Shown here piece by piece: positions 22,468 to 25,159 of a stretch of DNA of 64,000 nucleotides. Both the position numbers and the translations under genes were made by a program. Every line of letters begins with the position of its first letter. Within the stretch, counting starts at the first letter, position 1. Under the pieces are notes generated by a model. It had not been told where the DNA came from and searched no databases. It saw nothing but the letters and a program-made list of their open reading frames with translations. Source of the DNA: Urbifossiella limnaea (lineage in GTDB: Bacteria; Planctomycetota; Planctomycetia; Gemmatales; Gemmataceae); contig NZ_CP036273.1 of the NCBI RefSeq assembly GCF_007747215.1, forward strand, positions 7,424,322-7,488,321, written 5' to 3'.

Positions 22468-24309
22468 ATGCCCTTCGCCTACGTCCAGGACCTGAACCCG
22501 CTCGGCAACCAGTTGCTCTCGACAGTTGTCGCGGCGCTGCCGGTGCTGGTGCTGTTCTACCTCCTCGTCGGCCGCCGCTGGCTCGCCAGCTGGGCCGGCG
22601 TCGCCGGGGCCACGACCGCCATCCTGATCGCGTGGCTCGTCTACAAGATGCCGGTGGAGCAGGCGTCGTGGTCGTTCCTGTACGGCGCCGCGTTCGGCCT
22701 CATGCCGATCGGCTGGACCGTGTTCGCGGCGATGCTCCTGTACAACGTGACCGTCGAGACCGGCCAGTTCGCCGTGATCCGCCGCAGCATCGGCGGCCTG
22801 AGCGGCGACGCCCGCGTGCAGGCGGTGCTCATCGGCTTCGCGTTCGGCGCCTTCATGGAGGGGGCCGCCGGGGCCGGGTCGCCGGTGGCGATCTGCGGCG
22901 CGATGCTGGTCGGCCTCGGGGTGCCGCCGTTCCGCGCCGCGGTGCTGTGCCTGATCGCCAACACGTCGCCGGTGTGTTACGGCGGGCTCGGCGTGCCCAT
23001 CCTCACGCTCGGCAACGTCACCGGCATCGACCCCGCGACCGTGAGCGTGATGTGCGGGCACCAGCTGCCGCTGCTGTCGTGCCTGGTGCCGCTGTACATG
23101 GTGCGCTGCATGTGCGGCTGGCGCGACACGTTCGCCGTGTGGCCGGCGCTGCTGGTCGGCGGCGGGTCGTTCGCGGCGTTCCAGTACGTGTTCGCCACCT
23201 TCCACACGTGGGTGCCGGGCGTGTACATCTGGCCGCTGACCGACATCGGCGGCGGCCTGTTCTCGCTCGTGACGCTGGCGCTGTTCCTGCGGTTCGTGTG
23301 GAAGCCGAAGGACGAGTGGAAGTTCCCCGCGGCGGGCGACGGCGCCATCCCGAAGCCCGCGCAGACGGCCCCGCACGACCCGCACGCCGAGGCCGCGGTC
23401 GAGGAGGCGAAGCGGCTGCTGGACTCGTCGTTCCGCAACCCGCACACCGAGATCCCGCTGACGGCGCGAAGCATCGCGGTGGCGTGGTCGCCGTTCCTGG
23501 TGATGGCGGCGTTCCTGGCGGCGGCCGGCGTGGTCCGCGGGGCGGAGACGGACGCCAAGCGGGCGCTGGAGGTGGGGCCGCTGCGAACCTTCTACGAGTT
23601 CGAGGTGCCGACGCTGCACAAGCAGGTGGAGCGCGCCGACCGGCTGCTGCCGCCGGGCGCCGTGGGCGACGCCCGCAAGGAGGCCGCGGTCTTCAAGCTG
23701 CCGTGGGTGACGGCCCCCGGCTCGGCGGTGTTCCTGGCCGCGCTGGCGTCGATGGCGTTCCTGCGCATGAACGGTCGCCAGGTGGCCGGCGTGTTTCGCA
23801 AGACGGCGGTGCAGATGAAGATTCCGATCCCGACCATCGCGCTGATGCTGGGCCTGAGTTACGTGACGAAGTACGCCGGCGTCGACGCCACGCTGGGCGT
23901 GGCGTTTGCGGAGACGGGCGTGCTGTACCCGTTCTTCGCGGCGATGCTGGGCTGGCTGGGCGTGTTCCTGACCGGCACCGACGCCGGCAGCAACGCGCTG
24001 TTCGGTAGCCTCCAGAAGATCACCGCGACTGAGGTTTTCAACAACCACCCGGCGGCGCTGTCGAACCTGACGCTGGAGCAGACGCAGGTGCTGGTGTGCA
24101 CCGCGAACAGCACGGGCGGGGTGATGGGGAAGATGATCGACGCGCAGAGCATCTGCGTGGCGACGGCGGGGACGAACCAGCTGGGCCGCGAGGCGGACAT
24201 CTTCAAGGCGGTGATCTGGCACAGTGTGTTCCTGGCGAGCGTCGTCGGCGCGCTGACGGCGCTGCAGGCGTTCGTCCCCCCGTTCACGCGGATGGTGCCG
24301 CACCCCTGA
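22468..24309 (+). CDS. lldP: L-lactate permease family transporter
   Basis: The protein is 613 aa with at least twelve predicted membrane segments. The family signature GAFMEGAAGAGSPVAICGAM is followed by LCLIANTSPVCYGGLGVP, and GVFLTGTDAGSNALFG is the second hallmark near the C-terminus. LctP/LldP proteins import lactate or glycolate by proton symport across the inner membrane. The central cytosolic loop (residues about 290-400) is long and charged. The last 18 codons and the stop are repeated downstream at 25102-25159, flanking two inserted genes. No lactate dehydrogenase genes are adjacent. Confidence 0.9.
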   Translation: MPFAYVQDLNPLGNQLLSTVVAALPVLVLFYLLVGRRWLASWAGVAGATTAILIAWLVYKMPVEQASWSFLYGAAFGLMPIGWTVFAAMLLYNVTVETGQFAVIRRSIGGLSGDARVQAVLIGFAFGAFMEGAAGAGSPVAICGAMLVGLGVPPFRAAVLCLIANTSPVCYGGLGVPILTLGNVTGIDPATVSVMCGHQLPLLSCLVPLYMVRCMCGWRDTFAVWPALLVGGGSFAAFQYVFATFHTWVPGVYIWPLTDIGGGLFSLVTLALFLRFVWKPKDEWKFPAAGDGAIPKPAQTAPHDPHAEAAVEEAKRLLDSSFRNPHTEIPLTARSIAVAWSPFLVMAAFLAAAGVVRGAETDAKRALEVGPLRTFYEFEVPTLHKQVERADRLLPPGAVGDARKEAAVFKLPWVTAPGSAVFLAALASMAFLRMNGRQVAGVFRKTAVQMKIPIPTIALMLGLSYVTKYAGVDATLGVAFAETGVLYPFFAAMLGWLGVFLTGTDAGSNALFGSLQKITATEVFNNHPAALSNLTLEQTQVLVCTANSTGGVMGKMIDAQSICVATAGTNQLGREADIFKAVIWHSVFLASVVGALTALQAFVPPFTRMVPHP

Positions 24310-24311
24310 CG
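24254..24311 (+). repeat. Direct repeat, left copy (3' end of lldP)
   Basis: These 58 bases cover the last codons of lldP (AFVPPFTRMVPHP) and its stop. They recur at 25102-25159 with one mismatch. The pair brackets 790 bases of unique sequence carrying two genes, like the boundaries of an inserted or duplicated cassette. Confidence 0.9.
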
Positions 24312-24351
24312 CGGGCTGGACGTGCCCCAGGCGGCCGGGGAGAATGACGGT

Positions 24352-24666
24352 ATGGCCACGACCACCGTACCTTCGCCGGCGCTCGCTTCCCGCTTCCGCA
24401 CGCTGGCCGCCGAGTGGCAGGCCGCGACGCGGTTCCTGTCGTCGGCCGCCGCCACAGCGAATCACCCGGCGTACCGCGCGGTGGTGGCGCTAGGGCCGGA
24501 CGTGGTGCCGCTGATCCTGGCGGAACTGGCCGCGACGCCGGAGCCGTGGTTCGCCGCGCTGAGGGAGCTGACCGGTGCCGACCCCGTGCCGCCGGCCGAC
24601 CGCGGCCGCCCGCGCGCCGCGGCCGACCACTGGCTGGCGTGGGGCCGCGCCCGCGGGCTGGCCTGA
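24352..24666 (+). CDS. Small helical protein paired with the DUF7689-like gene
   Basis: The protein is 104 aa from the ATG at 24352, with GGAG nine bases upstream. It has a helical N-terminus (FRTLAAEWQAATRFLSSAA) and the block HPAYRAVVALGPDVVPLILA, followed by WFAALRELTGADPVP and a C-terminal ADHWLAWGRARG. Proteins of this pattern occur next to DUF7689-type genes in cyanobacteria and other bacteria, which suggests a two-gene system. The start of the next gene lies three bases after the stop. No enzymatic motif was seen; it may be a partner or inhibitor of the second protein. Confidence 0.6.
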   Translation: MATTTVPSPALASRFRTLAAEWQAATRFLSSAAATANHPAYRAVVALGPDVVPLILAELAATPEPWFAALRELTGADPVPPADRGRPRAAADHWLAWGRARGLA

Positions 24667-24669
24667 CCC

Positions 24670-25104
24670 ATGCTCTCGCCCCTTCTTCAGGCCGCCTTCC
24701 CGGACCTGGACGCCGACGGCGGCGCCGTCACCCACCCGGCCGACCCGGCGTACAACTGCGTGGCGTGGGCCGCGGGCGTGACCGACGTGCTGTGGTGGCC
24801 GGCCGACCCGGACGGGTACTGGCCGCCGGGAGCGCCGGACGAGCTGACCGTAGCGGCGTTCGTCGCCGCGCTGGGAACGGTGGGCTACGTGCCGTGCGCC
24901 GACGGCGGGTACGAGCCGGGGTTCGAGAAGGCGGCGGTGTACGCACGGGCCGGGGTGCCGACGCACGTGGCCCGGCAGGTGGCGGGCGGCCGCTGGTCGA
25001 GCAAGCTGGGCCGCGACTGCACCGTGGGCCACGCGACGCCGGCCGGGGTGGCGGGGCTGGTGTACGGCACCGTCGTGGCTTACCTCCGACGGCCGACGGC
25101 GTGA
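24670..25104 (+). CDS. DUF7689-like protein, possible cysteine peptidase fold
   Basis: The protein is 144 aa. Conserved blocks are AYNCVAWAAG, then WWPADPDGYWPPG, ALGTVGYVPCADGGYEPGFEKAAVYA, THVARQVAGGRWSSKLG and a final GTVVAYLRRP. A Cys at the start of a helix (NCVAWA) with a His opening a later strand (THVARQ) resembles the Cys-His layout of CHAP and NlpC/P60 peptidases; that is an inference from pattern, not a known activity. The stop codon lies inside the right-hand direct repeat. It is tightly coupled to the gene at 24352. Confidence 0.6.
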   Translation: MLSPLLQAAFPDLDADGGAVTHPADPAYNCVAWAAGVTDVLWWPADPDGYWPPGAPDELTVAAFVAALGTVGYVPCADGGYEPGFEKAAVYARAGVPTHVARQVAGGRWSSKLGRDCTVGHATPAGVAGLVYGTVVAYLRRPTA

Positions 25105-25159
25105 CGGCGCGGCAGGCGTTCGTCCCCCCGTTCACGCGGATGGTGCCGCACCCCTGACG
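25102..25159 (+). repeat. Direct repeat, right copy (duplicated lldP 3' end)
   Basis: This copy differs from 24254-24311 by one base (25111). It supplies the TGA stop of the DUF7689-like gene and then repeats the end of lldP including its TGA. No gene is formed by this copy itself. Confidence 0.9.

Follow-up and report, generated by a model that had tools for sequence, protein, structure and literature searches.

The end of lldP and the inserted pair of genes

The window analysed here is a stretch of 64,000 nucleotides from the chromosome of Urbifossiella limnaea, a genome assembled as a single contig of 7.8 Mb, with a G+C content of 73.5% around the site under study; the named relatives belong to the Gemmataceae. 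An intact gene of L-lactate permease (lldP) is followed in the window by two small genes of the same orientation, orf1 and a gene of the DUF7689 family, and these are followed by a second copy of the lldP 3' end which is detached from any gene (Table 1). The initial annotation had already described the end of lldP, stop codon included, as recurring with one mismatch, and the repeat search returned exactly these two copies, a direct repeat of 58 nt with 98% identity, the second copy lying 848 bp downstream of the first. The exact run within it is 48 bp long and reaches two bases beyond the lldP stop, while the single mismatch is preceded by the 9-bp run TGACGGCGC. The chance of a 48-bp exact match in 6 kb at the local composition is about 3e-18. 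When the whole genome was searched with the lldP-end probe, strong matches were confined to these two copies. Nearby repeats of this kind are rare, as a survey of 1.264 Mb of the chromosome turned up only five pairs, the lldP pair included (direct, at least 35 bp long, at least 88% identical and spaced by 200-4000 bp). No transposase or integrase was seen between or beside the repeat copies, and neither a terminal repeat nor conserved element ends were found in the insert.

Table 1. Features around the lldP 3' end, with positions in the window
Feature	Position	Strand	Remarks
lldP, L-lactate permease, intact host gene	22468..24309	+	Pfam Lactate_perm, E=2.5e-134; ortholog with 91% amino acid identity in G001
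Left repeat copy: lldP 3' end, stop and 2 nt	24254..24311	+	exact part 24264-24311
Promoter-like stretch, CTGGAC and GAGAAT	24312..24351	+	CTGGACG and a -10-like NANAAT kept upstream of orf1 in L068, L069 and L140
orf1, 104-aa all-helical protein	24352..24666	+	ATG at 24352; model pLDDT 90.4
DUF7689 protein, 144 aa	24670..25104	+	PF24738, E=1.4e-35; model pLDDT 95.9
Right repeat copy: lldP 3' end duplicate, detached from any gene	25102..25159	+	exact part 25112-25159; 25102-25110 is the TGACGGCGC microhomology

The leader of the insert comprises 40 bp carrying a putative -35/-10 pair, and the start codon of orf1 lies a few bases past the -10 element; the orf1 transcript is possibly leaderless. 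Three genomes align with the window from position 24312 onwards, and a mobile boundary at this position was considered and rejected, because the edge coincides with the conserved promoter-like motif. At the other edge, the stop codon of the DUF7689 gene had been thought to be supplied by the right-hand repeat. The stop does overlap the first bases of that repeat; the closest homolog (locus L068), however, ends at the same codon (TAACGG against TGACGG), so the stop may be the gene's own. If it is, TGACGGCGC may represent microhomology at the junction, and the true copied tract would be about 48 bp long.

The four relatives in the genus with a readable lldP end (G001-G004) all have it once only, with different DNA downstream. 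Two of them (G001 and G002) are without DUF7689 anywhere, and in the other two (G003 and G004) the 790-bp unit is found elsewhere, at unrelated places and with about 80% identity. The opposite picture, a gene order common to all relatives and repeats that have diverged, was not encountered. The two copies in the window are 98% alike, as compared with 88% to the lldP end of G001 over 58 bp, and since they resemble each other more than either resembles G001, the duplication is young. As the operon is absent beside lldP in four relatives and present elsewhere in two of them, the module beside lldP is a recent acquisition rather than an ancient duplication.

The orf1-DUF7689 operon and its distribution

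The presence of a helical protein gene and a DUF7689-like gene between the repeat copies was confirmed. The membership of the second in its family is secure, its Pfam score of 122.9 bits lying above the gathering cut-off of 22.6; orf1 has no match among Pfam, NCBIfam or PADLOC families, and a fold search with it gave no match either. In an alignment of 77 DUF7689 sequences the residues Asn29-Cys30, His99 and His121 are invariant, and in the model C30 is placed on helix 30-34, H99 on strand 96-103 and H121 on strand 118-121. The best PDB matches of the model are largely NlpC/P60 proteins, at a level that is not significant (E>=0.18, TM about 0.3), and a viral structure library returned similar matches, also not significant, the best with an E value of 0.025. 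DUF7689 can be said to resemble cysteine hydrolases of the NlpC/P60 type weakly, and a cysteine hydrolase with orf1 as its helical partner is taken as a working guess. A literature search on DUF7689 found no paper.

Of 80 genomic loci, which come from many phyla, 74 have orf1 directly before DUF7689, and so do all 19 viral loci (contigs). In the family, 29 of 95 genomes carry the pair, with up to six matches in one genome. It can be said that orf1-DUF7689 is a fixed pair with a patchy distribution across many phyla. At three loci (L146 5465-6286, L147 2077-2898 and L148 6141-6962) single proteins were noticed by eye in which a DUF7689 domain is followed by an orf1-like domain, and both domains appear to be fused there in one protein. 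In two distant phyla (L178 3797-4540 and L208 3810-4559) a gene of a family with the PITEALLDIRV motif lies directly upstream of the pair.

A plasmid or phage vector was considered and rejected, as the module has no match in plasmid or phage collections, and no bracketing repeats were found in the 19 viral contigs which carry the pair. Likewise, a neighbourhood of toxin-antitoxin genes gave no support to addiction: among small neighbours they account for about 5 of 83 near the module and about 4 of 83 far from it, a null result, and a toxin-antitoxin role of orf1-DUF7689 is unproven. Individual neighbours of this kind are BrnT, PemK/MazF, PIN, HicBA, DUF433/DUF5615 and HigBA.

Repeats at other loci and the codon-position test

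At several other sites, too, the module has an intact host gene on one side and, on the other, a copy of part of the end of that gene. It is bracketed by 39 bp from the 3' end of an ABC ATPase gene, stop included, at L127, by 278 bp from the 3' part of a convergent gene of 467 aa at L222, by 54 bp near a gene 3' end at L178 and by a short repeat at L227, and at L172 it is the 3' end of orf1 itself that is copied downstream of DUF7689. At L068 (2242-3482) the module lies between 180-bp segments of a cobalamin riboswitch (Rfam), a third copy of which precedes a BrnT gene. At L069 (5616-11214) five direct repeats of about 350-490 bp split small cassettes, one of them orf1-DUF7689 and others with a PemK/MazF toxin gene and a PIN-domain gene; by eye, the repeat resembles an N-terminal fragment of IS110.

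The same arrangement is formed around other cargo. At a second site in the genome of U. limnaea (L235, 75005-76068) a gene of 267 aa (75096-75899) lies between an intact gene of 519 aa and a 98-bp copy of its 3' end; the repeat reaches two bases beyond the stop codon, just as it does at lldP, and the second junction shows the microhomology GGCGTGACG. At L162 (7487-8490) a gene which looks DUF4258-like by eye is flanked on each side by the initial 94 bp of hsdM, a repeat that starts exactly at the ATG, and at L177 (5510-7319) a higBA-like pair adjoining orf1-DUF7689 has the 5' end of an oxidoreductase gene repeated on either side of it. Across loci the bracketing repeats are unrelated in sequence, measure from about 25 bp up to almost 500 bp and derive from unrelated genes, a riboswitch and an IS-like repeat. 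In five loci (the window, the own-genome repeat at 75974-76068, L127, L172 and L162) the tract stops no more than 2 nt from a stop or start codon of the host gene. The short repeats of L185, L179 and L203 have the appearance of dispersed intergenic repeats, so they were left out as evidence of mechanism, and the matches at L196 and L148 were discarded as a coordinate artefact (self-overlap).

Two further arrangements were observed. At L124 (7101-9028) a 208-aa gene is present in two intact copies with a hicBA-like pair in between, and at L151 (3235-4068) a DUF433/DUF5615 pair is enclosed by 66-bp direct repeats.

Bracketing repeats are enriched around the module in the Gemmataceae (6 of 44 against 7 of 325 in the control, P=0.002), where flanks of 3 kb were compared with control flanks of 1.2 kb and all six counted matches fall within 1.2 kb. 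As general support the enrichment was set aside, since in the wider set of genomes it amounts to just 9 of 80 against 4 of 105 (P=0.05).

The copies at other loci carry differences, and their position within codons bears on how the repeats arose. A repeat that arises at insertion would begin as two identical copies, of which one then decays regardless of codons. In the six loci with a coding end in the repeat, third codon positions hold 36 of 49 differences (P=1e-8), or 18 of 26 when L222 is left aside (P=2e-4), P values which are indicative, as the loci were chosen after the pattern had been noticed. Taken by itself, L172 does not show the pattern, with one of three differences at the third position; L177, kept outside the main pool, is neutral with four of eight and brings the pool to 40 of 57. 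The sole indel in the six loci is three bases long. The excess at third positions implies that the flanks diverged largely as working genes, in separate lineages, before they came together, and it favours recombination with a related strain over duplication of a target at insertion. Tract ends close to stop or start codons would also be expected where the coding sequence is shared and the neighbouring DNA is not.

Possible routes of entry

On balance, the insert at lldP is probably the product of additive recombination with a fragment from a related strain bearing an lldP end together with orf1-DUF7689. Such a fragment would consist of the last stretch of lldP and then the operon, and it would be added to the chromosome by homologous recombination within the lldP end on one side and by an end-to-end join aided by the short shared TGACGGCGC on the other. 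In an equivalent route the fragment would be circularised at TGACGGCGC and integrated by a single crossover. Either route would leave lldP intact and place the operon behind it, followed by the 3' scrap of lldP that had belonged to the recipient and then by the DNA that lay downstream before the event. In homology-facilitated illegitimate recombination 3-10 bp of microhomology are typical of the illegitimate join (PMC3240628), and in the window TGACGGCGC provides a microhomology of 9 bp where the non-homologous sides meet. Linear DNA that is ligated and then integrated by single crossover has also been described (PMC3240628). The lldP site is like these processes in having one homologous side, one microhomology side and about 1 kb of foreign DNA. 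It counts against the proposal that the classical process yields mostly deletions rather than duplications (PMC3240628); laboratory cases usually lose host DNA, whereas host DNA is duplicated at lldP. As the two lldP-end copies agree at every position of their 48-bp exact run, the codon test is inapplicable to the lldP event. We infer the donor, the order in which the two sides were joined and the sharing by lldP of the route of the other loci. The order lldP-orf1-DUF7689 without a repeat, as in a donor, was not found among the 59 relatives searched, and the donor strain may be unsampled. No mosaic signal is visible in lldP when compared with G001 or G002.

The main rival to recombination at lldP remains an insertion with a long target duplication, which is possible though rather doubtful. 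According to this explanation the 3' end of lldP was cut in a staggered manner, fill-in copied 48-58 bp, and the operon entered at the break by an unknown transposition-like step or by capture during end joining. The geometry is exactly as expected, with repeats abutting both ends of the insert and a single copy in the empty relatives, and the near-identity of the window copies (48/48 over the exact run) fits a recent fill-in. Moreover, insertion with long and variable target duplications has been reported for restriction-modification genes of Helicobacter pylori by Nobusato et al. 2000, as cited in PMC1643837 and PMC3031569. That system, the nearest precedent, is alike in that a small unit lies between long variable target repeats, the host gene or locus is otherwise intact and a transposase is lacking; it is unlike the present one in that the cargo there is restriction-modification genes and here orf1-DUF7689, and in that several comparable loci here bear a signature of coding divergence. 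Under duplication at insertion there is no reason for copies elsewhere to differ chiefly at silent codon positions, nor would a random cut be expected to place the tract ends at stop or start codons, and the insert is without conserved ends.

Site-specific integration of a small non-autonomous element, with a recombinase acting in trans and the repeats as attachment sites, is improbable. Gene 3' ends are common integration sites at which the host gene is restored, and the tyrosine-recombinase integrative elements are similar to the lldP insert in that the direct repeat is a gene 3' end and the gene is preserved. Unlike in those elements, no recombinase and no common core are present here and the genes are different each time: no integrase gene was found in the insert or nearby, no common attachment core was found across loci, the repeats elsewhere have neither sequence, length nor gene in common, and the inserts share no termini beyond the promoter-like motif. 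Elements of the IS1549/IS1634 type are also known for long variable direct repeats around the insert; the lldP insert differs in lacking a transposase gene and terminal inverted repeats. The early suggestion of an integration or recombination event which preserved the lldP 3' end thus holds as far as an acquisition with lldP left whole is concerned, and a mobile cassette with ends of its own is not upheld, given the promoter-like pair at the left edge, the lack of an integrase or terminal repeat and the allele-like flanks elsewhere.

An old tandem duplication of lldP and the module, later deleted to scrap, would produce direct repeats too, yet it is very improbable in view of the 48/48 identity against 88% to the nearest relative's lldP end, the absence of the module beside lldP in relatives and of any further lldP remnant downstream; no relative was seen in which complete lldP copies enclose the module on both sides. 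Direct repeats can mislead assemblers, but an assembly error is hardly credible: the genome is a single contig, and the arrangement is met again in genomes unrelated to it and once more within its own sequence.

The preferred recombination with related-strain DNA bears on how small pairs of genes without transposases move between chromosomes, and the analysis suggests that such units may enter in this way, not by a dedicated jumping-gene machine. As a tentative generalisation, small self-maintaining units (orf1-DUF7689 and several toxin-antitoxin pairs) might spread without a mobile element through additive recombination between related strains, many cases of 'long target duplication' might be paired host alleles, and the units might persist as their loss across the flanking repeat costs the cell. 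The codon-position test distinguishes copies made at insertion from alleles of two strains by sequence alone and is applicable to thousands of genomes. The results also point to orf1-DUF7689 as an uncharacterised and widely exchanged operon, present in many phyla and on 19 viral contigs.
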